Source of the DNA: Actinomycetota bacterium
Lineage (GTDB): Bacteria; Actinomycetota; Coriobacteriia; Anaerosomatales; Anaerosomataceae
Direction: 5' to 3'
Length of the DNA stretch: 64,000 bases
Assembly (NCBI GenBank): GCA_004348925.1
Contig: RCMX01000002.1
Location: forward strand, 368,259-432,258
Shown here: positions 6,403 to 54,395 of the stretch, in pieces
How positions within the stretch are numbered: position 1 is the first letter of the stretch
Layout of the letters: the number at the start of each line of letters is the position of its first letter
Made by a program: the position numbers and the translations under genes
Notes under the pieces: model-generated
The model's input: the letters and a program-made list of their open reading frames with translations, nothing else
The model's database searches: none
Told to the model about the DNA's origin: nothing

Positions 6403-7172
6403 TGCGCGGTTTTGGTGCGTTTCTCGGCAAGGAGCTTCGCGAGATCCTGCGAACGTGGCGCATCTGGGTGCTGCCGGGCATCGTGCTCTTCCTCGCGCTC
6501 AGCGGCCCCATCCTGGCCAAGCTCACGCCGGAGCTGATCCGATCGATGTCCGATGGTGGCGGTCTGGGCGGTGCTGTCATCAACCTGCCGGACCCGACGT
6601 GGCGCGATGCGTACGCGCAGTGGACGAAGAACATCTCGCAGATCGTGACGTGGGCGCTCGTGATCATCCTCGGCGGCATCGTCTCTGCCGAGCGGCGCTC
6701 CGGCACGGCGATCCTCGTGCTCACGAAGCCCGTCTCGCGGCCGGCGTTCATCCTGGCGAAGTTCGCGTCGAACTCGATCTTCCTCGTGGTGACGACCGCT
6801 GTCGGTGCGGTGGCAACGTGGGGCGTGACGTACGCTGTGTTCGCCGAGGCGCCCGTGCGTGTGCTTGCCGAGGCGACCGGCGTGTGGCTCGTGTTCGCGC
6901 TGTTCGTCACGGCGCTGATGACACTCGTCTCGGCGCTCATCGACTCGCAGTCGGGAGCGGCGGGCCTCGGCTTCGGCGCGTTGGTACTGCTCTCGATCGC
7001 GACCCTCTGGGGACCGGCCGTGGAGTACAGCCCTGCCGGCCTGCTGAGCGCTCCCAATGCGGTGCTGTTGGGAACGGACGTGAGCCTGGGGTGGCCGCTA
7101 ACGACCGGCGCGATAGCGGTCGTGCTCCTGGTGTGGGGCGCGGTGCTCGCGTTCGGTCGCAAGGAGCTCTAG
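6402..7172 (+). CDS. ABC-2 type transporter permease
   Basis: The 256-aa membrane protein begins at a 1-nt overlap (TAATG) with the ATPase gene. FGAFLGKELREILRTWRIW is the amphipathic N-terminal elbow helix of ABC-2 permeases, followed by six predicted membrane helices. The ERRSGTAILVLTKPVSR segment after helix 2 is the conserved coupling region of the NatB/NosY-like family. It should form the transmembrane channel of the exporter with the preceding ATPase. It is the last gene of the padR operon, closed by a strong terminator. Confidence 0.9.
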   Translation: MRGFGAFLGKELREILRTWRIWVLPGIVLFLALSGPILAKLTPELIRSMSDGGGLGGAVINLPDPTWRDAYAQWTKNISQIVTWALVIILGGIVSAERRSGTAILVLTKPVSRPAFILAKFASNSIFLVVTTAVGAVATWGVTYAVFAEAPVRVLAEATGVWLVFALFVTALMTLVSALIDSQSGAAGLGFGALVLLSIATLWGPAVEYSPAGLLSAPNAVLLGTDVSLGWPLTTGAIAVVLLVWGAVLAFGRKEL

Positions 7173-7190
7173 CAACACCGTGCAGACACA

Positions 7191-7224
7191 GAAGGCCCCG
7201 GAGAACGCTTCCTCCGGGGCCTTC
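7191..7224. terminator. Bidirectional terminator
   Basis: A 12-bp stem (GAAGGCCCCGGA pairing with TCCGGGGCCTTC) with a 10-nt loop is followed by a T-containing stretch on the + strand. It separates the ABC operon from the convergent rubrerythrin gene and can serve both directions. Confidence 0.85.
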
Positions 7225-7241
7225 ATTCGTTCGTTGAGCGC

Positions 7242-7778
7242 CTAGATGTACGTCATCGCCAGTTCGTCGAGCGTGATGTGGTCCGCCTCGACCGCGCTCA
7301 CGGCCTCCCAGACCTCTCGCAGCCGCGAGCTGGTCGCCCGGGCCGCGAAGTTCGCGTAGAGCGTCGTCGCTCGGTTCTCGCGCGCAAGCGACTCCGCGAT
7401 GTCTCCCGCCCACGAGCCGGTGGTCTCCCCGGGCGTCAACAGGTCGGCCGGCCTCGGCACCCCTGCGAGCTTGCAGAACACCGAGCAGTGCTCGGCCTCC
7501 ACCTTCGCCAGTCGTTTGTATGCCGAGCGGAGCGTGTCGTTGTCTTTACGCTCGGCCATACCCAGGTAGAAGCGCGTGTTGGCGCGCTCGAGCTCGATGG
7601 ATGAATCCAGATCGCCCCGCTCGGTCTCGGTGAGCTCGATTCGGTTGATCGAGGCGTCGTACTCCGTCGGATCCACGAAGAACTCGACGTGCGCGCCGCA
7701 GAATGGGCAGTTGCCCGGTTCTTCGTAGCCCAGGTACGTCTCGCCACATATCCGGCAGCGGAACAACTTCAGTTGCAT
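7242..7778 (-). CDS. Rubrerythrin-like protein with N-terminal rubredoxin-type domain
   Basis: The 178-aa protein starts with a zinc-ribbon/rubredoxin-like domain, CRIC at residues 8-11 and CPFC at 24-27. A ferritin-like four-helix domain follows, with iron-ligand-type residues in ELERANTRFY, KVEAEHCSVF, ESLARENRATTLY and AVEADHITLDEL. The order (rubredoxin first) is that of reverse rubrerythrin. Such proteins reduce hydrogen peroxide in anaerobes, taking electrons from NAD(P)H via rubredoxin partners. On the minus strand the ATG follows GAGGAGCACC. It is a single gene between two terminator/promoter regions. Confidence 0.88.
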   Translation of the reverse strand: MQLKLFRCRICGETYLGYEEPGNCPFCGAHVEFFVDPTEYDASINRIELTETERGDLDSSIELERANTRFYLGMAERKDNDTLRSAYKRLAKVEAEHCSVFCKLAGVPRPADLLTPGETTGSWAGDIAESLARENRATTLYANFAARATSSRLREVWEAVSAVEADHITLDELAMTYI

Positions 7779-7911
7779 GCGGTGCTCCTCTCGGCAGCGG
7801 TGTGTTCGCAGGTCCCGGTTGGCGTTGAATGTCAGGTCACGACTATACTACCCATGACCGGTCGACAGCCCCGCTGTCTCAGTGCTCACGCGAACACGAA
7901 GGGTCCAATGC

Positions 7912-10128
7912 ATGGGAACGCGCGCGCTTGACGGTGCCCCCGCAAAGGGCGGAGGGGCGTATGCCCCGCCTTTGCGTCCGATAGCGCCGGTCGTGGTGTT
8001 GGCACTCTTCTGTTGTGGACTGTATGGCATCCTTCACTCGGTTCCGGATCGCTCCCTGGTGCTTGAGATCGTTCGACAGTCCGCGTACCTTGCACCGTTC
8101 TTCCTGGCTGCCATCGCTTCACTGGTCGCCTATCGCCGTGCGAGCGATCGCGAACGGCGATTGTGGCGCGGCCTCGTGGTCGGCTTGCTGCTCATATCGC
8201 TGAGCGAGGCATATGTGAGCGTGCTCGTCCTGGAGCGGCGCGTGCTCACGCCCGATGCATCGACACTGCCGATGGTGGTGAGCATGATCGCGGCAGTGGT
8301 GCTGATTGCCACGCTGTTCAGGCTCACCGACTTCCGCACGCTGTCACGCTCGGTGGGCGTGAGACACATCATCGATGCTGCCGGCACTAGCCTGCTGCTC
8401 TTCGGAGCAGTGCTCGCGCTATTCGCGGTTCCGATTACCGCGAGGTACCCGGCGTCCGGGGCGATCGACGATCTCGCGGCAGCACTCTACGCCGTACTTG
8501 GCATCCTTATGCTCATCGCGACCGCCGTGAACTTCGCCACTCGCGGCTGGAGTCATTGGCGCGAGTGTGAGCGGCGGGTCATCGTCGGGGTGGGGATCTA
8601 CGGACTCGCGACGGCACTGTGGCCGCTATGGTATCTCGGGTCCGTTCTGAATCGCCCCCTTGCATGGGACGCCATCATCGAGATCATGTGGATGGCAGGC
8701 GCATTCATGGTCTTCTCGGGAGCGGTGACCCGTCTGCGCGTGGAGGGGGCCGACCCGCGGTTCCTCACGCTCCCTCGCATGCGACCCAGACGTCATGGTT
8801 CGCTCTCCATGACGATGCCGACGCTCTTCACGTTCGGCATCCCGCTGTTTGGGTCGATGGCGCTTCTGGGCTCGGCTGACTCGCTCACGAGAACCGCATA
8901 CGCGATCACGGCACTGGGGCTCACGTTCGTCGTGGCCGGTCGCTCTGCCGTGTCCGCCATCGAGAACGAGTTCCTCTTCGACAAAGCCGTGAACGACCCA
9001 CTCACGGAGCTGTACGGGCACCGCTACTTCCACGAGCGACTCAAACTCGAGTTGGAGATGGCCGCTCGCCGCGGAGCCAGGGTGTCGGTGGTGGTGCTCG
9101 ATCTCGACGGCTTCTCGCGGATCAACGGTGCTCACGGGCATGCATTCGGAGACGCCGTTCTTCAGTCGGCCGCAAGCGCGATCCGTGGCGCATGCCGTGC
9201 GTCCGACGTCGTGTGCCGACTGGGAGCCGATGAGTTCGCGATCATCCTTCCCGAGGCCAACGATCCTGATATGACGGGCGTGGCCGAGCGCATACAACAT
9301 GCGCTGCTCGGTGTGGACACCGGGGAGTCAGGTCAGCTGACGGCGTCGATAGGGCTCGCCTCCTACCCGCAAGACAGCGTCGAGCAAGACGATCTTCTCC
9401 GCAAAGCCGACGGTGCGTTGTACTGGGCGAAGTACCACGGAAAGAACCGTGTCGTCGCGTTCGATGAGTCGGTCGTGGAGTCACTGAGCGCAGACGAGCG
9501 CATACGCGTACTCGAGGAGCAATCGCATCTGGGGACGGTGCGCGCCCTCGCGGCGGCGGTCGACGCCCGCGATCCGCTCACGCAGTTCCACTCCCGCAAC
9601 GTGGCGGTTCTCTCGGTCATGCTTGCCGAGGAGGTCGAGTTGGACGAGGGGAAGCGTCAGCTCATCGAGATCGCTGCGCTGCTTCATGATGTCGGGAAGA
9701 TCGGCATCGCCGATCGGGTGCTGCGCAAACGCGGCCCGCTCAACGCGTCAGAGTCGCGCCACATTCGCGAGCATCCCGGTCTTGGCGAGAAGATTCTGCG
9801 CTCGACCCAGCTCGAGGAGATCCTCCCGTGGGTTCGCCATCATCACGAGCGCTGGGACGGCATGGGGTATCCCGACGGGCTGGCGGGGGAGGCGATACCG
9901 ATCGAGGCGCGATTGCTGTGCATCTGCGATGCCTACGACGCCATGACCTCGGGCCGTCCGTACCGGGCCGCGCTCTCTTCGACGGCAGCGTTGCAGGAGC
10001 TCGATCTGTGCATCGGTACCCAGTTCGACCCGGCCCTTACCGAGGCGTTCATCCGGCTTGTCGGGAAGCGACGGCTGCTCCGACCGGGCATGCACTCGGC
10101 TCGCGAGGAGCGTCGGATGAATCCGTAG
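7912..10128 (+). CDS. Membrane GGDEF / HD-GYP c-di-GMP protein
   Basis: I prefer the ATG at 7912, preceded by GAAGGG at 8 nt, over an in-frame GTG at 7882. The 738-aa protein has about eight N-terminal membrane helices (to about residue 355), then a GGDEF domain starting at DPLTELYGHRYFHERL. The signature there is GADEF (about 438-442) rather than GGDEF. A C-terminal HD-GYP phosphodiesterase domain has HDVGKIGIADRVL near 591 and HHERWDGMGYP near 642. HD-GYP domains hydrolyse c-di-GMP to pGpG or GMP; the catalytic HD and GYP motifs are intact. Cyclase activity is uncertain because the first Gly-Gly is Gly-Ala. The membrane part may sense an envelope signal. Confidence 0.92.
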   Translation: MGTRALDGAPAKGGGAYAPPLRPIAPVVVLALFCCGLYGILHSVPDRSLVLEIVRQSAYLAPFFLAAIASLVAYRRASDRERRLWRGLVVGLLLISLSEAYVSVLVLERRVLTPDASTLPMVVSMIAAVVLIATLFRLTDFRTLSRSVGVRHIIDAAGTSLLLFGAVLALFAVPITARYPASGAIDDLAAALYAVLGILMLIATAVNFATRGWSHWRECERRVIVGVGIYGLATALWPLWYLGSVLNRPLAWDAIIEIMWMAGAFMVFSGAVTRLRVEGADPRFLTLPRMRPRRHGSLSMTMPTLFTFGIPLFGSMALLGSADSLTRTAYAITALGLTFVVAGRSAVSAIENEFLFDKAVNDPLTELYGHRYFHERLKLELEMAARRGARVSVVVLDLDGFSRINGAHGHAFGDAVLQSAASAIRGACRASDVVCRLGADEFAIILPEANDPDMTGVAERIQHALLGVDTGESGQLTASIGLASYPQDSVEQDDLLRKADGALYWAKYHGKNRVVAFDESVVESLSADERIRVLEEQSHLGTVRALAAAVDARDPLTQFHSRNVAVLSVMLAEEVELDEGKRQLIEIAALLHDVGKIGIADRVLRKRGPLNASESRHIREHPGLGEKILRSTQLEEILPWVRHHHERWDGMGYPDGLAGEAIPIEARLLCICDAYDAMTSGRPYRAALSSTAALQELDLCIGTQFDPALTEAFIRLVGKRRLLRPGMHSAREERRMNP
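7941..7976. repeat. Hairpin inside the start of the GGDEF/HD-GYP gene
   Basis: CGCAAAGG and CCTTTGCG form the outer stem, and GGGGC and GCCCC the inner stem around GTAT, separated by a small internal loop. It lies about 10 codons after the proposed start, where it encodes a Gly/Ala/Pro-rich segment (GAPAKGGGAYAPPL). It could be a repetitive-palindrome insertion or affect translation. Confidence 0.5.
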
Positions 10129-10154
10129 AGACCCGTCCGGCACTGCTCGACCGT

Positions 10155-11264
10155 CTACAGCGGGTTTGCGGCCAGATGTGCGAAGGTTCCGGCGCGATCG
10201 TCCAGGTGCTCGACGATGTACGTGTGTATGCCCACCACGCGGTTGTGCTCGGCTGCGAGCGCGTTGCGTTCCTCGGCGGCCGCGTTGTACTCGGCGGCTG
10301 CTGCGTTGTAGCTGGCGACAAGGGCGTTGTATCCGGCGCTGTCGCCGGCGGCGAGCAAGGCGTCCATGCGCGACTTCAGGCTCGTCACATTCGGTTGCAG
10401 CGTCTTGAGTCGCGTGTCCGCGGCGTTGATGCGTCCGGCGAGCTCATCCGCGCGCTGCTTGGCAGCGGCAGCCGTCGACAGGATCGTGGTCACCTGCGCT
10501 CCGGCGTCATACCGCTTGGTGCCGTCCCCGAGCTTGAAGACCTGCGGCGCGCTCGTGAGCTTCGTGCCGTTGCCGACGGAGTCCGGCGGCATGCCCACAA
10601 ACCCGCGTGTCGTCGTCTCGATGTATGCGTAGCCGGTATCGCCGTACTCGAGCCCTTCGGCCTTGATTCCCAGCGCGACGTGCTGCTCGGGCCCGAACAG
10701 CAGGATCGCGACGTCGTATCCCTCGCGTGCCAGCAGCCCGCCGAGCAGGAGTGCTTTGTCATCGCAGTCGCCCGCCTGTTGGGCAGCGGTCTCAACCGGG
10801 AACTTCGGCGACAGATTATGCGGGTCCAGCTTGTACTCGAGCGACTGCGCGTACGAAGTCATGAGCTCCACGTACCGGTCGCTATCGAGGCCGGACGCAT
10901 CCCGGATGCCCCGGAACTGGCCGATCATTGCCGAGAAGAACGCGTCCTGGTGCTTCTCGAAGACGAATGCGGGGTAGTAGTCGCTGATCCAGTCGTTCTC
11001 GCGTGCGTTGCCGAAGCGGATGACGCTCTTCTCGGCTTGTTGTGCGCCGACGTAGAGCGGTCCATCGACGACTATCGAGAGCGTGCGAGGCGTCCCCTCG
11101 AAGGTGAAGGTCGTGTCGACGGTGAGGTTTGCGGTGCCGGCGACGGGCGTGATCGAGGGATAGACGACGCCGGTCGGCAGCCGCAGCGTGCCATCCGCAT
11201 TGCAGCCGGCCACGAGTGCGAGCGACAGCGCGAGTGCGACTGCGACGAGCGGACGAACTCGCAT
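10155..11264 (-). CDS. Lipoprotein with transglutaminase-like domain and C-terminal coiled coil
   Basis: The 369-aa product has a lipoprotein signal (hydrophobic stretch then LVAGC, lipidated Cys at about residue 21), placing it outside the membrane. The middle contains QQAGDCDDKALLLGGLLAREGYD, then EQHVALGI and YAYIETT. This Cys...His...Glu/Asp arrangement resembles bacterial transglutaminase-like cysteine proteases. The last 110 residues form an Ala/Glu/Asn-rich coiled coil (RADELAGRINAADTRLKTL, EYNAAAEERNALAAEHNRV). The role may be cleavage or processing of a surface protein; the substrate is unknown. It converges on the GGDEF/HD-GYP gene. Confidence 0.75.
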   Translation of the reverse strand: MRVRPLVAVALALSLALVAGCNADGTLRLPTGVVYPSITPVAGTANLTVDTTFTFEGTPRTLSIVVDGPLYVGAQQAEKSVIRFGNARENDWISDYYPAFVFEKHQDAFFSAMIGQFRGIRDASGLDSDRYVELMTSYAQSLEYKLDPHNLSPKFPVETAAQQAGDCDDKALLLGGLLAREGYDVAILLFGPEQHVALGIKAEGLEYGDTGYAYIETTTRGFVGMPPDSVGNGTKLTSAPQVFKLGDGTKRYDAGAQVTTILSTAAAAKQRADELAGRINAADTRLKTLQPNVTSLKSRMDALLAAGDSAGYNALVASYNAAAAEYNAAAEERNALAAEHNRVVGIHTYIVEHLDDRAGTFAHLAANPL

Positions 11265-22215: not shown

Positions 22216-22324
22216 CGAGGACGCCTCGGTGATCGCGGGTTTCCTGGAGCGCCTCGTGTGCTCGATGCGTTCTGCGTCACCGATGTAGGGTTTCCCCCGG
22301 TACTCACCGGGTCAGGGCATAGCG

Positions 22325-23101
22325 ATGAGAGGGGTTGACGTGGCTGTAGACGAAGCGAGGTTCAAGCGGCTCAGGATCTACAACGTGGTGATGGGGCTCT
22401 TCCACCTGCTGCAGGGAGCGGCGATCGTCGCACTCCGTGAGCCCTACGACATCCAGGTGACGGCGTCGTGGTTGAATCAGCGCCCCGGGCCTCTCGTCTA
22501 CGGCACCCCGCAGCCGTACTTCACGTTCGATCTCGGTCTGGGGGTGGCGCTCTTCCTGTTCTTCTCGGCGGCTGCGCACTTCATCATCGCGGGACCCGCA
22601 TACGCGAAGTACGTCGATGGCCTGAAGAAGGGCCACAACTACTTCCGCTGGATGGAGTATGCGTTCAGTTCCTCGCTCATGGTGGTGCTGATCGCCGCGC
22701 TCGTGTCGATCACCGATATCGCCGCGCTCATCGGGATCTTCGGTGCGAACATGTCGATGATCCTGTTCGGATGGCTCATGGAGAAGTACGAGAAGCCGGG
22801 CAAGCCCGATTGGACGGCGTTCATTTTCGGCTGCGTTGCCGGCATCTTCCCGTGGCTGGCGATCGCCGACTATCTGTGGGGTCCGGGCGCGAGCGACATG
22901 ACCCCGAGCTTCGTGTACTGGATCTTCGTGTCGATGTTCGTCTTCTTCAACAGCTTCGCTGTCAACCAGGTGCTGCAGTACAAGCAAGTGGGGAAGTGGA
23001 AGGACTACCTCTTCGGCGAGTCGTCCTACGTGTTTCTGAGCCTCGCTGCGAAATCTCTGCTTGCGTGGCTCGTGTTCGCCAACGTGCTCATCCCGCAGTA
23101 G
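22325..23101 (+). CDS. Heliorhodopsin
   Basis: The 258-aa protein has seven predicted membrane helices and family-specific motifs. These are LFHLLQG in helix A (His27), AAAHF (His85), the helix C segment WMEYAFSSSL (Glu111, expected counterion), FGCVAGIFPWL, FVFFNSFAVNQVLQY, GKWKDYLFGE, and SLAAKSLLAW in helix G, with Lys243 as the expected retinal Schiff-base lysine. All align with the key residues of heliorhodopsin 48C12 (His23, His80, Glu107, Lys241). Heliorhodopsins sit inverted in the membrane relative to other rhodopsins, have slow photocycles and are thought to be sensory or enzyme-regulating. The ATG at 22325 or GTG at 22340 (after GAGAGGGG) may be used. No retinal-synthesis gene is in the window. 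Confidence 0.95.
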   Translation: MRGVDVAVDEARFKRLRIYNVVMGLFHLLQGAAIVALREPYDIQVTASWLNQRPGPLVYGTPQPYFTFDLGLGVALFLFFSAAAHFIIAGPAYAKYVDGLKKGHNYFRWMEYAFSSSLMVVLIAALVSITDIAALIGIFGANMSMILFGWLMEKYEKPGKPDWTAFIFGCVAGIFPWLAIADYLWGPGASDMTPSFVYWIFVSMFVFFNSFAVNQVLQYKQVGKWKDYLFGESSYVFLSLAAKSLLAWLVFANVLIPQ

Positions 23102-23231: not shown

Positions 23232-24179
23232 ATGAGCACGCACAGCCCGTGGGCGTCTCTCCCGTATCACGAGTGGTCGTCCACGAAGCGTACGCTGCAG
23301 ATGACCCTGCAGATGCTCGGAAAGCTCAAGCTCGCGCTGCTCCCGCCCCAGCCCGAGTGGCTACACACCGCGCTTCAGGTCACGGCGCATGGCTGGACGA
23401 CCGGGGCGGTGCCGACGGGCGACGGTAGGCTGATCGAGGGCGGTGTCGACGTGTTCGCCGGCACGGTATGGCTGCAGGTGAGCGATGGCCGTCGTGAGGA
23501 TCTCGGCCTCCCCGATACGAGCGTCGCATCCGTATGGTCGTGGTTCACACGGACTCTCGGTGCGCTCGATGTCGAGGCCGACCTGTGGGAGAAGCCCCAG
23601 GAGGTCGCTGATACGACGCCGTTCTCCGAGAACACACACGATGCGACGTTCGTCGTCGAACATGCGCAGCGATTCCATTCGGTGCTCGCCGGTGTGCAAA
23701 GCATCTTCGAGGAATTCCGCTCGGAATACTTCGGTCGCAGTGGAGTGCAGTTCTGGTGGGGCGCGTTTGACCTGGCGGTGTTGCTCTTCAACGGCAAACA
23801 CGCGGTCGCTCCAGATGACCGAGGCTACATAATGCGCTACGACCTCGACGCCGAGCACCTCAATGCCGGCTTCTGGCCCGGTGACGATGAGTCGCCGCAG
23901 CCGGTCTTCTACGCGTACCTTGTGCCGCAGCCGCCCGGCTGCGCGCTGGCACAGCTCGATGCCGATGGGGCTGCATGGATCGAGCAGATGGGTGAGTGGG
24001 TGCTGCCCTACGAGGTCGTACGCACTTCCCCGCAACCTGCGGTGCTTCTACGCTCATTCCTGGATAGCGCGTACCGCCTCGCCGGAGAACTTGGCGGGTG
24101 GGACCTCGCGGACTTCAGGTACGTCAAACCGTTGGTTTCGTCACGGAATGCCCGGCCACGAACGGTGAGTGAGAGATGA
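23232..24179 (+). CDS. DUF5996 family protein
   Basis: The ATG at 23232 follows GGAGCAGG, giving 315 aa. The N-terminus (WASLPYHEWSSTKRTLQMTLQMLGKLKLALLPPQPEWLHTALQVTAHGWTTG, split over residues 6-57) is characteristic of DUF5996. Further on are VQFWWGAFDLAVLLFNGK and WPGDDESPQPVFYAYLVPQP. The protein has no signal peptide or membrane helix and is Trp-rich. Its biochemical role is unknown. It overlaps the next gene by 4 nt (ATGA), so the two are translationally coupled, and it lies 130 nt after heliorhodopsin on the same strand. Confidence 0.85.
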   Translation: MSTHSPWASLPYHEWSSTKRTLQMTLQMLGKLKLALLPPQPEWLHTALQVTAHGWTTGAVPTGDGRLIEGGVDVFAGTVWLQVSDGRREDLGLPDTSVASVWSWFTRTLGALDVEADLWEKPQEVADTTPFSENTHDATFVVEHAQRFHSVLAGVQSIFEEFRSEYFGRSGVQFWWGAFDLAVLLFNGKHAVAPDDRGYIMRYDLDAEHLNAGFWPGDDESPQPVFYAYLVPQPPGCALAQLDADGAAWIEQMGEWVLPYEVVRTSPQPAVLLRSFLDSAYRLAGELGGWDLADFRYVKPLVSSRNARPRTVSER

Positions 24180-24439
24180 ACACATGTCAGCACTTGAGCA
24201 CGGTCCCTGTCCCTGAACCCGAGGCAGGGACTCAAGGATGCCAGGAATGCCTTGCGATCGGTCAGAGCTGGGTGCACTTGCGCAAATGCCTCATCTGCGG
24301 CCACGTGGGGTGTTGCGACCAGTCGATAGGGAAGCACGCGACCGAGCATGCGAAGGAGTCGGGCCACGCCGTGATCCGCTCGTTCGAGCCAGGTGAGCGT
24401 TGGCGCTACTGCTATACAGATGAGTTGTTCATGGAGTAG
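24176..24439 (+). CDS. UBP-type zinc finger protein
   Basis: This 87-aa protein is almost entirely a zf-UBP domain. The metal-ligand-type residues are Cys4/His6, Cys22/Cys25 (CQEC), Cys38/Cys41 (CLIC), Cys46 and His54/His58/His64 (HATEHAKESGH). In eukaryotes this fold binds the C-terminal Gly-Gly of free ubiquitin. Stand-alone bacterial versions are known but their ligand is not. No ubiquitin-like, E1 or deubiquitinase gene is visible nearby. It starts within the DUF5996 stop (ATGA), so the two proteins are probably made together. Confidence 0.9.
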   Translation: MNTCQHLSTVPVPEPEAGTQGCQECLAIGQSWVHLRKCLICGHVGCCDQSIGKHATEHAKESGHAVIRSFEPGERWRYCYTDELFME

Positions 24440-28104: not shown

Positions 28105-29136
28105 GTGCATGATCGCACCCTACTGAGAGCGTCACTCGTGTCGTTCATCGCACTCTTCGTCGTAGCAGCGTTTCCTCTCGTCGCGGTGGCCGACACGACT
28201 TCCGGCTATCTGGATTGGACCGATACGTACGGGACCGACACTCCCCACAACGGATTCACCACGTCGTCCACGAAGTGCGCCGTGTGTCATTCAGTGCACA
28301 AGGCACCAGCGGCTGGGGAGCTGCTTCTTCGCACGACAGGCGAGGACGCTTGCGTGTACTGCCATATCTCCAGTACGACGGGACTCATCGGCATCTACGA
28401 CGGAGACACGAGCCTGTACGTCGACGACAACAGGAACAATCACAGCCTCGACGGTGGTGCGCCATGTATCGGGTGTCACTCCGTTCATGGTGCCGATACC
28501 TACACAGGCAAGATCGCGAGCAAGATCCTGAAGCGTCTGCCGATCCAGCCCGAATTCGTTCGCATGTTCTCGGAGACCAACGACGCCGAGTACCTCTACA
28601 CGCTCGATACAGACGACACCGTCGTCGGTGCGCCGCCGTACGACTGGGAAGAGTGGGGCGGTGCCAAAGACGTGCAGCAGACTGCCTTCTGCACCGGCTG
28701 CCACCCGTACTTCACGCGCGCTTCCGAGGATGAGATCACGACAGATCGCATGATGGTCGATGGCGCTATCTCCACCGAGACCACCTCGTTCGCCTCGCAT
28801 CCGATGAAGCGCTACTGGGGCGACGCCGACATGAACATCGATTTCGTGGCGGCAGGATCGTCTCTTCCCACATCGACACAAGTCGCCGGAATGAGCACGA
28901 ACGGTTGCTACCGCTGCCACGGCGAGGGTGACTACACCAACCGCGGCCCCGGTGCCTGGGAGTCGAGTTTCCCGCACTTCACGGCCACCCGGCAGCGGTT
29001 CCTCTCATCGAGCGATGCGGACGGCAACTGGCTGACAGACACGCCCGACTCTTCCTCGGACGGCACATGCTTCCATTGCCATCTCGGCTATACGGACGCT
29101 GACGGCAATCCGGCTGGAGTCGGCGTCAGCTACTAG
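28105..29136 (+). CDS. Hexaheme c-type cytochrome
   Basis: The 343-aa protein begins at GTG after GGGGAG and has an N-terminal signal peptide (VSFIALFVVAAFPLVAVA). Six CxxCH heme-attachment sites are present: CAVCH, CVYCH, CIGCH, CTGCH, CYRCH and CFHCH. Additional His residues (VHK, SVHGAD, SHPMK) could serve as distal ligands. The protein would be exported and carry electrons outside the membrane. Spacing of the first three motifs resembles doubled-CxxCH proteins such as NrfH/OmcI-like cytochromes, but I do not see a named family. It is monocistronic, with its own promoter-like sequence and terminator. No cytochrome c maturation genes lie in the window. Confidence 0.9.
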   Translation: MHDRTLLRASLVSFIALFVVAAFPLVAVADTTSGYLDWTDTYGTDTPHNGFTTSSTKCAVCHSVHKAPAAGELLLRTTGEDACVYCHISSTTGLIGIYDGDTSLYVDDNRNNHSLDGGAPCIGCHSVHGADTYTGKIASKILKRLPIQPEFVRMFSETNDAEYLYTLDTDDTVVGAPPYDWEEWGGAKDVQQTAFCTGCHPYFTRASEDEITTDRMMVDGAISTETTSFASHPMKRYWGDADMNIDFVAAGSSLPTSTQVAGMSTNGCYRCHGEGDYTNRGPGAWESSFPHFTATRQRFLSSSDADGNWLTDTPDSSSDGTCFHCHLGYTDADGNPAGVGVSY

Positions 29137-39770: not shown

Positions 39771-41021
39771 ATGCTCGTTCGCAGTTCGCCCCCTGGCCGC
39801 AGCCTTCTCGGCGTGACTGTCGTGCTCTCCGTATCGTTGGTGTTCGCCTCTCCGGCTCTGGCCGAGATACGAGGAACCGACCTCGTGGGGGAACGCCAGG
39901 TCGTCGCGGCACCCGACATGCAGGCTGTTGCGCCTGACATGACGACGCCGGCAGCCGTCCTTGCGACCTCCGACGGCCAACTGCTGTGGGCGCGCGAGCC
40001 GAACGCCGAACGAGCGATGGCGAGCACCACCAAGATCATGACGGCGATCGTGGTCCTCGAGGCAGTATCGGACCTTGCCGAGATGGTCACGGTTCCTCCT
40101 GAAGCGGCGAGGGTCGGGGAGGCGGACGTCGGACTGAATGCTGGCCAGAAGCTCAGCGTGCGCCAGCTGCTTGAGGCGATGCTCGTTCACTCGGGCAATG
40201 ACGCGGCGACGACGCTTGCCGTGCACGTGGGTGGGTCGATACAAGGATTCGTCGACCTTATGAATGAGAAGGCACTGAGCCTGAACCTCGAGCACACCAA
40301 CTTCACGAACCCACACGGTCTCGACGATCCTGACCACCACACGACAGCTGCCGATCTGGCCATCATGGCCCAATATGCGATGAGCAAGCCTACATTTCGG
40401 GAGATGGTCGGGAAGAGAACGGTCGACGTCCCGGCGGGTCGCACGACACAGCGATTCGAAGCCAGTAACCTGCTTCTCGGGGCGTATGACGGTGCGACCG
40501 GAGTGAAGACCGGGTGGACGAACGATGCCGGCTACTGCCTCGTCGCCTCGGCGAAGCGCGGTGGGATCGAGCTGTTCGCCGTGATCTTGGGAACGAAGAC
40601 CGAGAACGCACGGTTCGTTCAGGCCAGGAGGTTGCTGGATTGGGGCTTCGCGCACTATGGGGTCCGTGAGGTCGCAAGCGCCGAGACGACCACCGCGCTG
40701 GTCGCGGTGACCGACTACCTGGATCTAACGGTCCCTGCAGTCGTGGCCGAGACAACATCCACTCCCGTGTTCGACGTGCTCGGCGAGGTCAGCACGCGTG
40801 CGAGCGTGGCCGATGAACTTAGGGCTCCCGTTGCGAGGGGCCAACGTCTGGGGACACTCAGTGTCGAACAGGGCGGCAGGCTGATCGCCCAGGTTCCGAT
40901 CGTCTCGGCAGTGGACGTCCCGGCACCGGGCGGTTGGGAGCGCTTCAAGATTGGCGTGACGCGCCTGTGGCGCAGGGTATTCGGCGGGCAATTGCGGGCT
41001 CAGACGGTGAACGTGCCGTGA
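39771..41021 (+). CDS. dacF: D-alanyl-D-alanine carboxypeptidase (peptidase S11)
   Basis: ATG 39771 follows GGAGAAG and places a signal peptide (LLGVTVVLSVSLVFASPALA) at the N-terminus of a 416-aa protein. The penicillin-binding motifs are complete: S85-T-T-K88, S141-G-N143 and K246-T-G248. This low-molecular-weight PBP trims the terminal D-Ala from peptidoglycan pentapeptides outside the membrane. The C-terminal domain and amphipathic tail (PGGWERFKIGVTRLWRRVF) probably anchor it to the membrane. gcvT begins 20 nt downstream. Confidence 0.93.
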   Translation: MLVRSSPPGRSLLGVTVVLSVSLVFASPALAEIRGTDLVGERQVVAAPDMQAVAPDMTTPAAVLATSDGQLLWAREPNAERAMASTTKIMTAIVVLEAVSDLAEMVTVPPEAARVGEADVGLNAGQKLSVRQLLEAMLVHSGNDAATTLAVHVGGSIQGFVDLMNEKALSLNLEHTNFTNPHGLDDPDHHTTAADLAIMAQYAMSKPTFREMVGKRTVDVPAGRTTQRFEASNLLLGAYDGATGVKTGWTNDAGYCLVASAKRGGIELFAVILGTKTENARFVQARRLLDWGFAHYGVREVASAETTTALVAVTDYLDLTVPAVVAETTSTPVFDVLGEVSTRASVADELRAPVARGQRLGTLSVEQGGRLIAQVPIVSAVDVPAPGGWERFKIGVTRLWRRVFGGQLRAQTVNVP

Positions 41022-41041
41022 CTGACGAAGAAGGGATCATC

Positions 41042-42148
41042 ATGACGGAGGAGTTGCTGCGAACACCGCTGTATCAGGAGCACCTGGCGCTCGATGCTCG
41101 CATCGTGCCGTTTGCCGGGTGGGAGATGCCCGTGCAGTATGCCGGCATCATCGAGGAGCATAAGGCGGTGCGCTCGGCTGTCGGCATCTTCGATGTCTGT
41201 CATATGGCCGAGTTCCGCTTCTTCGGGTTCGATGCGTTCGATGCGCTGCAGTCGATCGTCACGAACGACCTGCACAAGATCGATGAGCTCGGAAGCGCGC
41301 TCTATACCGTCATGTGCGACGAGGACGGCGGCATCATCGACGATCTCATCGTGTATCACACAGGCGATCTGGAGTACCTCATCATCGCCAACGCGGCGAA
41401 CCGTCAGACCGACTGGGATTGGATCACGTCGCATCTTCCCGAAGGAGTCGAAGCTGTCGATGAATCGGATCGCACGGGGCTCATCGCCGTGCAAGGTCCA
41501 CGTGCACTCGAGGTGATCGCGAGCCTCGCGGGGGAGGGGTTCGTGCCGCCGGCGCGGTTCCATATCGCCGAGGCACGGCTGGAGAACATCCCGGTCCTGC
41601 TCGCTCGGACGGGCTATACCGGCGAGGACGGTGTCGAGATCGTCTGCCACGTGGATCACGCGGTCGCTGTCTGGCGTCTGCTGCTCTCATTTGCCGAGGT
41701 CACACCATGTGGGCTCGGGGCCAGGGATACGCTCAGGCTTGAGATGGGCTACCCGTTGTACGGCAGCGACATGGACCGCGGCGTCGATCCTGTCTCGGCG
41801 GGGCTGGGCTGGGTCGTTCCGAAGGCGAAGACAGGTTACATCGGTGCCGATGCGGTCGCACGGGTGCGGGACGCCGGACCCGCACGCAAGCTCGTGGGCC
41901 TCCAGGTGTCGGAGGGTGTTCCGCGCCATGAGTATCCCGTGTTGCACGAAGGCACGGAGGTGGGTAAGGTTGCAGGCGGTACGTACTCACCGACGCTCGG
42001 CCACGGCATCGCGACGGCATACGTTCCCGCGGAGCTCTCCGCGCCCGGCACGGAACTTCGGATCGCGATTCGCCGCAAGGAGGTCGCCGCCACCGTCGTG
42101 CGGCCACCGTTCGTCAAGCAGACGTCACTCTCGGCGCCTTCGTCGTAG
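41042..42148 (+). CDS. gcvT: Glycine cleavage system T protein (aminomethyltransferase)
   Basis: The 368-aa protein transfers the aminomethyl group from lipoyl-GcvH to tetrahydrofolate, releasing ammonia. Conserved segments include [56 protein letters not shown] and [18 protein letters not shown] (the Asp is the catalytic base in the family). ATG 41042 has GAAGAAGGG upstream; a GTG at 41018 overlapping the dacF stop is an alternative. It opens the gcvT-H-PA-PB-lplA run. Dihydrolipoamide dehydrogenase (gcvL) is absent and must be elsewhere. Confidence 0.95.
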
Positions 42149-42563: not shown

Positions 42564-43892
42564 ATGCGCTTCATACCGGTGTCTTGCGAGCAGCGTGAGA
42601 CCATGCTGCACGCCGTCGGTGCGCGCACCGTCGACGAGCTTTTCGAAGTCATACCCGCGAGCGTTCGCCTGGCGCGGCCGCTTGCGTTACCACCCGGCAT
42701 GAGCGAGATCGACCTGGCAGCCGAGATCGAGGCGCTCGCCGCCTCTAACACGGGCGGTCTGGTGTCGTTCCTCGGCGGTGGCTGCTACGACCACTACGTC
42801 CCGGCCATCGTGGACGACGTCGTGAGTAAACCCGAGTTCTTCACGGCCTACACGCCGTACCAACCGGAGATCAGCCAGGGCACGCTGCAGGCCATCTACG
42901 AGTACCAGTCGATGATCTGTGCGCTCACCGGCATGGATGTCGCGAACGCGTCGATGTATGACGGCGCGACCGCGTTCGTCGAGGCGGCGCTCATGGCGGC
43001 ACGTGTGACGAAGCGGCATCGCGTCGTCGTGAGCGCCGCGGTTCATCCGGAGTGGCGCGCGGTGCTCGACACCTATGCCGAGTCGGGCATGATCGAAGTG
43101 GTGACCTGCCCCGCAGAGTGGGGGACAACCGACCATGCCGCACTCGCCGCACTCGCTACCGACGCCGCTGCGATCCTCGTGGCGTCGCCGTCGTTCCTCG
43201 GGTGCGTCGAAGACGTCGCCGCCATCGGGACGCTCGCTCACGATGCGGGGGCGCTACTGGTGGTGGCGGCCAACCCGATACTGCTCGGCGTGATGGAAGC
43301 CCCGGGGGTGCTCGGCGCGGACATCGTTGTGGGCGAGGGACAGCCGCTTGGCAATGCGATGTCGTTCGGTGGACCAGGATTCGGCTTCTTCGCTTGTAGG
43401 GAGCAGTTCATCCGTCAGATGCCGGGGCGTATCGCGGGGCGCACCAAGGACGTCGATGGACGCCAGGGCTTCGTGCTCACGATGCAAACCCGTGAGCAGC
43501 ACATCCGGCGCGAGAAGGCGACCTCCAACATCTGCTCGAACCACGCGCTCAATGCGCTTGCCGCCGGAGTCTATCTGGCGTCGGTCGGCACCGTGGGTCT
43601 CGAGGGGATCGGCCGTGCGTGCATCGCCAAGGCGCACTACCTGCGTGACGCACTCATCGCGACCGGCAATTTCTCGGCGGTGAGCGATGCGCCGTTCGGC
43701 AACGAGTTCGCGCTGCGCTACGACGGCGATGTCGGTGCGATGCAGCACGCGCTGCTCGAGCGCGGCTTCCTCGCGGGCGTCGACCTGTCGCGCTTCGGGG
43801 ACGAGTTCGCGGGCATGGTGCTCTTTGCTGTGACCGAGAAGCGCACGCGTGCGCAGATGGACCGCTTCATCGGAGAGGTGGTGTCGCTGTGA
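42564..43892 (+). CDS. gcvPA: Glycine dehydrogenase (decarboxylating) subunit 1
   Basis: The 442-aa protein is the N-terminal half of a split P protein. [15 protein letters not shown] opens it, and [39 protein letters not shown] is recognisable at 73-111. [22 protein letters not shown] segment lies near 262. With GcvPB it forms the PLP enzyme that decarboxylates glycine and loads the aminomethyl group on GcvH. It overlaps gcvPB by 4 nt. Split P proteins are usual in anaerobic and Gram-positive bacteria. Confidence 0.96.
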
Positions 43893-52047: not shown

Positions 52048-53802
52048 TTGGCGCGCTCACTTATGTCGGGGAACGAGGCGGTTGCGCGGGGAGCATGGGA
52101 ATCCGGAGTCTTCGTCGGGGTGGGGTACCCCGGAACGCCGTCTACCGAAGTCCTCGAGAACCTTTCGAAATACGATGACGTCACCTGTCAGTGGGCGCCG
52201 AATGAGAAGGTGGCCGCGGAAGTGGGCGCCGGGGTCAGCTACGGCGGCAAGCGCACGCTGGTGACGATGAAGCACGTGGGTCTGAACGTCGCCGCCGATC
52301 CGCTCTTCACGTTGTCATACATCGGCGTTGGCGGCGGCTACGTTCTGCTCGTCGCTGACGACCCCGGGATGCATTCGAGTCAGAACGAGCAGGATAGTCG
52401 CAACTACGCTGCGTTCGCCAAGGTGCCGATGCTTGAGCCTTCAGACAGCCAGGAAGCTCTCGACTTCACGCGTGCTGCCTTCGAAATCTCCGAGCAGTTC
52501 GACACGCCCGTTCTCATTCGCTCGACCACTCGTATCTCGCACTCGAAGAGCCTCGTGGAAGTCGGGGAGCGCAACACGGTCGCCTCGGCGGAGTTCAAAC
52601 AGCATCCCGGCAAGTGGGTGATGATGCCGGCGAACGCGCGCGCTCGCCGGGTGGATCTCGAGGCGCGAATGGAGCGGCTTTCCGCATTCTCCAATGAATG
52701 CGATCTGAACCGGATCGAGATGAGAGACCCGGCTCTCGGGGTCGTCGTTTCAGGGATCGTGTACGAGTATGTGCGTGAAGCACTCCCAGAGGCTTCGATT
52801 CTCAAGATCGGCATGGTGAATCCGCTGCCGGAGGCTTTGATCACCGAGTTCGCGTCCAAGGTCGACCGGCTCGCCGTGGTTGAGGAACTCGACCCGTACC
52901 TCAGTTCAAGGCTGAGGTCTCTCGGGATCGACGTCGTCGAGACCGGACTCTCCACGATCGGTGAACTGACACCGGGGTTGATCTCGCGTGCGTTCGGTGC
53001 AACGACCCCGGAACTCCGGGATGAGATAAGCGACCTGCCGCCGCGGCCACCGTTGCTGTGTCCCGGCTGCCCTCATCGCGGTGTGTACTGGGCTCTCGGG
53101 AAGCTGAAGGCGGTCGTCACCGGCGACATCGGATGCTACACGCTTGGTGCATTGCCGCCTCTCTCGGCGATGGACACGTGCGTTTGCATGGGTGCAAGCG
53201 TTGGGATGGCGCATGGTCTTGGTATCACCGGTGCAGCCGAGGGGCGGCCCGTCGTCGGCGTCATAGGCGACTCTACATTCGCCCATTCGGGCATCACCGG
53301 CGTGCTGGACATGGTGTACAACGGTGCCGCGGGCACCATCGTGATCCTCGACAATCGGACGACTGCGATGACGGGTCACCAGGGCAATCCCGTTTCGGGC
53401 AAGACGCTTTCCGGAGCACCGGCTCCCGCGCTCGATCTTGCTGCGCTGTGCAGCGCGCTCGGGGTCGATTCCGTGCGTACGGTCGATCCGCTCGACATGA
53501 CCGCCACGCTGGCCGTGCTCACCGAGGAGACGAAGCGCGACACGCTGAGCGTGATCATCGCGAAGTCGCCGTGTGCGCTCATCGTTCGTTCCGATGCCGA
53601 TCCCGTCGCCATCGATGAGGAGCTCTGCACGAGATGCGGCGTCTGCGTGCGCCTCGGCTGTCCCGCGATCATGAAGCTTCCATCGGGGCAGCCGGTGATC
53701 GACACCGCCATCTGCGTTGGATGCGGACAGTGCGTGCAGGTCTGCCGCTACGATGCGATCGTCACCGTGGGCCCGGCGTGTGACTTCGGAGGTGGTCTGT
53801 GA
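52048..53802 (+). CDS. iorA: Indolepyruvate:ferredoxin oxidoreductase, alpha subunit
   Basis: The TTG at 52048 follows TGGAGGTGA, giving 584 aa. Signatures include GVGYPGTPSTEVLEN, KHVGLNVAADPL, and PGCPHRGVYWALGKLKAVVTGDIGCYTLGALPPL, followed by the TPP-binding GDSTFAHSGITGVLDMVYN. Two C-terminal ferredoxin clusters are CTRCGVCVRLGCP and CVGCGQCVQVC. With IorB it oxidises arylpyruvates (indole-, phenyl-, hydroxyphenylpyruvate) from aromatic amino acids, giving arylacetyl-CoA, CO2 and reduced ferredoxin. It opens a run of nine genes. Confidence 0.95.
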   Translation: MARSLMSGNEAVARGAWESGVFVGVGYPGTPSTEVLENLSKYDDVTCQWAPNEKVAAEVGAGVSYGGKRTLVTMKHVGLNVAADPLFTLSYIGVGGGYVLLVADDPGMHSSQNEQDSRNYAAFAKVPMLEPSDSQEALDFTRAAFEISEQFDTPVLIRSTTRISHSKSLVEVGERNTVASAEFKQHPGKWVMMPANARARRVDLEARMERLSAFSNECDLNRIEMRDPALGVVVSGIVYEYVREALPEASILKIGMVNPLPEALITEFASKVDRLAVVEELDPYLSSRLRSLGIDVVETGLSTIGELTPGLISRAFGATTPELRDEISDLPPRPPLLCPGCPHRGVYWALGKLKAVVTGDIGCYTLGALPPLSAMDTCVCMGASVGMAHGLGITGAAEGRPVVGVIGDSTFAHSGITGVLDMVYNGAAGTIVILDNRTTAMTGHQGNPVSGKTLSGAPAPALDLAALCSALGVDSVRTVDPLDMTATLAVLTEETKRDTLSVIIAKSPCALIVRSDADPVAIDEELCTRCGVCVRLGCPAIMKLPSGQPVIDTAICVGCGQCVQVCRYDAIVTVGPACDFGGGL

Positions 53803-54395
53803 TGAGCAAGGTGACCACCGTCGTCCTCGTCGGTGTGGGCGGACAGGGGACGATCCTCGCCGGTGACGTGATCGCGAAAGTCGCTGTCGCCGAGGGTCAT
53901 GATGTCAAGCTCTCCGAAGTCCACGGAATGGCCCAGCGAGGCGGTTCTGTGGACACGGTCGTTCGTTTCGGCGAGAAGGTCCATGCGCCCATCATCGACA
54001 CCGGCGTCGCTGATCATCTCATCGCATTCGAGATCACCGAGGCCGCCCGCAAGCTGCAGTACCTGTCGAAGACGGGACGTCTCGTCGTAAACAGTCGCAC
54101 CATCCAGCCGCTGCCGGTTCTCACGGGTGCGGTCGGACCGGCGCAGGGCGTCGAAGCCGAGCTCCAGTATGAGGGAGCGGTGTTCATCGATGCGGAGGCC
54201 CTTGCGTGCGAAGCAGGAAGTCCCCGATCGGCGAACGTCGTTCTGCTGGGTGCCGCGTCGTTCGGGTTGCCGTTTGCCGAGAAGACCTGGCGGGACGTCA
54301 TTGCCGGCCGCGTGCCACCGAAGACCGTTGAAGCCAACCTCCGTGCGTTCGATCTGGGTCGCGCAGCGTGTGCGAAAGGGGTGTGTGATCTGTGA
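53802..54395 (+). CDS. iorB: Indolepyruvate:ferredoxin oxidoreductase, beta subunit
   Basis: The 197-aa partner of IorA (VVLVGVGGQGTILAGDVIAKVAVAEGHDVKLSEVHGMAQRGGSVDTVVRFG over residues 6-57) shares the gamma-type domain of 2-oxoacid oxidoreductases. LLGAASFGLPFAEKTW is conserved near 148. ATG 53802 overlaps the iorA stop by 1 nt; GTG 53799 is an alternative. The gene overlaps the ACT-domain gene by 4 nt. Confidence 0.94.
   Translation: MSKVTTVVLVGVGGQGTILAGDVIAKVAVAEGHDVKLSEVHGMAQRGGSVDTVVRFGEKVHAPIIDTGVADHLIAFEITEAARKLQYLSKTGRLVVNSRTIQPLPVLTGAVGPAQGVEAELQYEGAVFIDAEALACEAGSPRSANVVLLGAASFGLPFAEKTWRDVIAGRVPPKTVEANLRAFDLGRAACAKGVCDL

Follow-up and report, generated by a model that had tools for sequence, protein, structure and literature searches.

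Genes at the locus

The window, that is, the whole 64,000 nt stretch of DNA that was analyzed, contains an open reading frame at 22325-23101 on the plus strand, encoding 258 amino acids from ATG 22325, which an earlier note had described as a heliorhodopsin (HeR) gene. The reading frame exists as described, with a corrected start codon. HeR probably starts at GTG 22340 rather than at ATG 22325, because in the alignment of close relatives an ATG or GTG start is found at the position of GTG 22340 or close to it, the upstream ATG is missing from most of these relatives, and the ribosome-binding-like run GAGAGGGG (22327..22334, +) is located 5' of the GTG. A purine-rich run is likewise placed in several relatives, and GAGAGGGG is the likely ribosome-binding site of the GTG start. 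The revised coding sequence, 22340..23101 (+), encodes 253 amino acids and is based on the Pfam and PDB matches, the conserved start column and the AlphaFold2 (AF2) model. With the GTG start the residue numbers drop by 5 (Lys243 becomes Lys238); the numbers used here count from ATG 22325 unless stated otherwise. A search for a sigma-70 promoter upstream of HeR found none.

The next gene downstream, separated by a gap of 130 bp, encodes a DUF5996 protein (23232..24179, +; PF19459, E=1.7e-80). Genomes G012 and G003 share the HeR surroundings with the window; according to synteny, DUF5996 is not conserved as a HeR neighbor except in G003. A small zf-UBP zinc-finger protein (24176-24439), with a ubiquitin-related domain in a bacterium, overlaps the end of the DUF5996 gene, and a multiheme c-type cytochrome with paired CXXCH motifs, possibly a component of extracellular electron transfer, is encoded at 28138-29136. 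The metabolic genes named as context in the earlier note are present, namely a rubrerythrin-like gene (7242-7778), GcvT (41018-42148), GcvPA (42564-43892) and 2-oxoacid:ferredoxin oxidoreductase-type genes (52063-54395). All of them are more than 14 kb away from HeR and are not its operon partners. The ferredoxin and glycine-cleavage genes are uninformative as to what HeR senses; no neighbor is conserved across the order.

Neighbor clustering of 38 HeR loci and a Pfam search of 106 neighbors revealed no partner gene common to the order. The most common neighbor domains belong to histidine kinases (HATPase_c, 7 of 106; HisKA, 6 of 106), these being raw counts without a background rate. DUF1295 (steroid 5-alpha-reductase-like) proteins account for 5 of the 106 neighbors (L121 9003-9908, L124 8886-9761, L133 5418-6269); they come from several lineages and are near HeR, though not always adjacent to it. 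In the congener G020 (L117) HeR extends to 8729 and is followed on the same strand, about 10 bp downstream, by a GGDEF protein with a Tll0287-like sensor domain (8742-9989). Judged by this arrangement, the diguanylate cyclase is a possible candidate for a cyclic-di-GMP output of HeR, for G020 only.

Host organism

The host genome (G000; 2.25 Mb, 7 contigs, 99.2% complete) carries one HeR and belongs to the order Anaerosomatales (OPB41), class Coriobacteriia, phylum Actinomycetota. The two described isolates of the order are obligate anaerobes (PMC9686372), and in 35 of the order's 41 HeR carriers the searches for a COX1-family and a bd oxidase found neither. The earlier assignment to an apparently anaerobic lineage thus holds for the order, but is too strong for the host itself, because its genome has an operon for a cbb3-type oxidase (CcoN, a protein that fuses CcoO with a multi-heme c part, and small subunits) and a photolyase gene, the latter on contig C6 and not on the HeR contig. 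By its gene content the host is better called microaerobic-capable. In the cbb3 operon (L152, G000:C6:24000-40000; 6951-10795) the CcoO-like part is joined to several further CxxCH heme sites, a fusion that looks unusual.

Two associations with lifestyle were considered and rejected. A link between HeR presence and oxidase loss (raw p=0.03-0.04) vanishes when stratified by family (p=0.93). Photolyase as a sign of light exposure, encoded in 18 of 35 genomes with intact HeR versus 5 of 28 without HeR (p=0.008), gave p=0.21 in a CMH test by family.

Classification and predicted structure

The sole Pfam match of the protein is Heliorhodopsin, PF18761 (E=9.8e-94; 314 bits, cut-off 26.7), which covers profile positions 1-242 of 242. 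The PDB matches are six HeR sequences, the best of which is 48C12 (E=1e-70). The type-1 (bacteriorhodopsin) profile PF01036 matches neither the protein nor any other in its own genome, and a type-1 microbial rhodopsin was rejected on this ground and because the motif is SxxxK, not DxxxK.

His27, Ser81, His85, Glu111, Ser239 and Lys243 align with His23, Ser76, His80, Glu107, Ser237 and Lys241 of 48C12, which bears out the four residues singled out previously as diagnostic (His27, His85, Glu111, Lys243). The codons of His27 (22403..22405, +), His85 (22577..22579, +) and Glu111 (22655..22657, +), the last corresponding to the Schiff-base counterion Glu107 of 48C12, encode residues that are invariant in the order. 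The SxxxK motif with the predicted retinal-binding lysine, S239-L-A-A-K243, is encoded at 23039..23053 (+) by the same alignment, and its lysine is kept in all 34 members of the order that have helix 7. The HeR of G066 (L140 4938-5918) covers profile positions 1-197 only, with helix 7 and the lysine missing, perhaps owing to a frameshift. The 15 residues listed for the Schiff-base and hydrogen-bond network of 48C12 (PMC9726877) are invariant wherever present among 35 HeRs of the order, the last four being absent solely in one damaged copy.

The AF2 model, built from an input alignment of 45 HeRs, has a pLDDT of 92, a pTM of 0.87 and seven helices, with a predicted beta hairpin between helices A and B (strands 42-47 and 63-69). 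In a Foldseek search with this model the top solved folds were all HeRs (TM 0.87-0.91; 48C12, 6su3, TM 0.90), followed by type-1 rhodopsins at TM of about 0.5-0.6. Lysine and arginine in the loops number 14 inside versus 2 outside, which fits the inverted orientation with the N-terminus inside. With the Pfam match, the predicted fold, the diagnostic residues and the tree in agreement, the gene is, virtually beyond doubt, a genuine heliorhodopsin, as the earlier note had proposed.

Distribution and phylogeny

HeR is present in 41 of the 69 Anaerosomatales genomes and missing from 28; 35 of the carriers have a full or nearly full gene and six have fragments, some of them cut by contig ends. None was found in the 229 genomes of other Coriobacteriia sampled, and a search of viral contigs for a related HeR found none. 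In the phylogeny suggested by the earlier note, a HeR tree that contained no type-1 rhodopsins, the window HeR falls inside the known heliorhodopsins, in the actinobacterial part together with 48C12 (SH-aLRT 100 for the 59-row branch). Of the order's sequences, 36 of 37 form one group (support 89) nested among actinobacterial HeRs; it divides into part A (20 rows, support 100), which includes the window HeR, and part B. The HeR of G009, a single-contig genome of the same family (L122, 7896-8741), is very divergent; it is placed apart from the order group on a long branch, and the genome carries no HeR that belongs to the order clade. G067 has two HeRs (L138, L094), one from each subclade.

The sister of the window HeR is that of G051, a genome of another family (support 99), while those of the congeners G017 and G018 fall in part B, and DNA homology between the window and G051 is restricted to the gene (22295-23101, 87% identity). 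Together these observations suggest a single-gene transfer of HeR within the order. The closest non-identical HeR pairs have dN/dS values of 0.08-0.29, indicating purifying selection. Truncated or shortened copies were found inside contigs in G003, G056, G040 and G037; what remains in G003 is at most the C-terminal third. Judging by the truncated copies at L142, L143, L144 and L146, several lineages appear to be losing the gene, G003 among them at the locus that corresponds to that in the window.

Retinal genes

Profile searches detected phytoene synthase (PF00494), Blh/Brp (BCD; PF15461) and RPE65-type carotenoid oxygenase (PF03055) each in none of the 69 Anaerosomatales genomes. The search covered these three families. 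Named control genomes matched PF00494 and PF03055, and the HeR carriers outside the order served as control for PF15461. Of these carriers (n=36), 25 have PF00494 and 10 have PF15461. The resulting contrast for PF00494 among HeR carriers, 0 of 41 in the order versus 25 of 36 outside (Fisher p=5e-12), ignores genome kinship and, because the genomes are related, is an illustration and not a model-based test. A type-1 rhodopsin was not found in the order either, the single PF01036 match being the HeR of G007. The known final retinal-forming enzymes are dioxygenases and need O2, so that an anaerobe could not run them.

The earlier note had found no crtY, brp or blh gene for retinal in the window, had suggested that retinal would be made elsewhere or scavenged, and had proposed a search of the full genome. 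That search, carried out on the 99%-complete genome and on all 69 genomes of the order, supports and extends the suggestion. As no genome of the order has the known retinal-making genes, Anaerosomatales must either get retinal from outside or use HeR in an unexpected way. Judging from the invariance of the 15-residue network, the photochemical parts of these HeRs show no sign of relaxation, though no genome makes retinal by a known route.

That exogenous retinal can charge a HeR is evident from the discovery of 48C12, which turned E. coli red on plates containing retinal (PMC9385722). In Saccharibacteria rhodopsins work although retinal genes are lacking (PMC9296517), and Actinomarinales have rhodopsins without retinal synthesis of their own (PMC7771536). 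HeR carriers without a complete retinal pathway are already known from scattered groups, since Actinomarinales and Bathyarchaeota are such carriers (PMC7771536, PMC7110647). In the accessible parts of the literature searched, supplementary lists of surveys aside, no account was found of HeR without retinal genes as an order-wide pattern in a lineage that is mostly anaerobic; within the same limits, no source joined heliorhodopsin with OPB41 or Anaerosomatales, and the single paper that named Coriobacteriia had them as reference genomes only.

Proposed function

By analogy with characterized members of the family, the protein is probably a sensory-type HeR that is charged with scavenged retinal. 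It is a canonical HeR, predicted to have seven helices, a cytoplasmic N-terminus and an extracellular A-B beta hairpin. Retinal would be expected on Lys243 (Lys238 from the GTG), with Glu111 as counterion. As in 48C12, light would isomerize the retinal, the Schiff-base proton would reach the His27/His85 pair by way of Glu111, and the hydrogen-bond network, once rearranged, would pass the signal on to a putative partner, so that the protein would act as a sensor or regulator and not as an ion pump. The retinal would most likely be taken up from outside, because neither the genome nor the rest of the order has phytoene synthase or either of the two known retinal-forming oxygenases, the latter being O2-dependent. 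We know of no retinal uptake system, and this counts against scavenging. The lack of a conserved partner beside the gene and the fading of the photolyase link, which would have spoken for light exposure, weigh against the proposed reading too.

Alternatively, the HeRs of this order may need no retinal and act as apo-protein scaffolds, or may be receptors that bind another aldehyde or a lipid. The missing retinal genes would fit such a role, as would the intact HeR of MAG Yes46-06 (G007). In the Yessentuki study the genotypes Yes75-02 and Yes09-04 are named after its wells (PMC11708057), and by the same naming Yes46-06 would come from well 46, a dark aquifer 686 m deep. Since light and fresh retinal are unexpected at 686 m, light sensing is hard to reconcile with this copy, unless the cells or the gene originate from surface recharge or the sample was mixed. 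However, the chromophore lysine, the counterion and the proton-relay residues are conserved; a scaffold could dispense with part of this set, although a ligand receptor might keep some. On balance a role without retinal is unlikely. Similarly doubtful is the wider notion that in Anaerosomatales, whose members mostly live without oxygen and in part in dark subsurface water, selection maintains HeR for a ligand which is not retinal of the cell's own making. HeR would then be the receptor of a retinoid from the environment or of another aldehyde, or else a light-independent sensor.

HeR could also be a recent chance acquisition or a selfish cassette heading for loss, without function in the order. 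The homology with G051, which covers the gene alone and crosses families, the shortened copies in four genomes and the 28 genomes without HeR would be expected from this, but one old clade extends across most HeR-bearing families (subclade support 100), its dN/dS is low and its catalytic network is invariant, which makes such an origin quite improbable. Rather less credible still is that the organism produces retinal itself, with enzymes that bear no relation to phytoene synthase, Blh/Brp or RPE65, possibly without O2. Selection retains every Schiff-base residue even though the three known families are absent throughout, as such a pathway would explain; to our knowledge no such pathway exists, and the loss of phytoene synthase removes all C40 carotenoid routes that we know of. 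It is simpler for a rhodopsin to be supplied with retinal by uptake, for which there is a precedent (PMC9296517). A light-driven ion pump or channel is very improbable, because most HeRs tested, including the two nearest solved relatives, 48C12 and TaHeR, transport no ions, although proton-transporting viral HeRs exist (PMC9385722).

The favored reading, a sensory HeR supplied with retinal from outside, bears on a family whose function is still debated. An old, common and selected HeR without known chromophore genes separates having HeR from making retinal, and a HeR gene alone does not justify inferring light use. The order raises the questions of the chromophore's origin and of the use that a mostly anaerobic cell makes of light, and it offers a clean test system in isolates grown with and without retinal, in light versus dark.

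Comparison with known heliorhodopsin systems

The HeR-glutamine synthetase, HeR-photolyase and HeR-ABC transporter systems (PMC9529153, PMC9769723, PMC11109279) involve the same receptor family and have a reported regulatory role, whereas none of these partners was found beside the window HeR, the photolyase gene being on contig C6. The Bathyarchaeota HeRs (PMC7110647) resemble those of Anaerosomatales in that they occur in uncultured mangrove-sediment archaea with an incomplete retinal pathway; they differ in belonging to another domain and in that a few of the MAGs have crtY or retinol dehydrogenase, while Anaerosomatales lack phytoene synthase order-wide. The Actinomarinales HeRs (PMC7771536) likewise have actinobacterial carriers without retinal synthesis genes, but these are aerobic, live in sunlit marine waters and also carry a proton-pumping rhodopsin, whereas no type-1 rhodopsin was found in Anaerosomatales. 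TaHeR of Thermoplasmatales (PDB 6is6, 7u55) shares the predicted fold, the key residues and 40% identity with the window HeR, but is archaeal and located deeper in the tree. With 48C12 of a freshwater actinobacterium (PDB 6su3, 6uh3) the window HeR shares about 48% identity, the predicted fold (TM 0.90), the counterion, the His pair, the SxxxK lysine and the hydrogen-bond network. The order clade is nevertheless a separate branch, and its carriers lack the carotenoid and retinal families searched for, whereas a Planktophila MAG that was sampled as a carrier in the 48C12 clade has PF00494 as well as PF15461.
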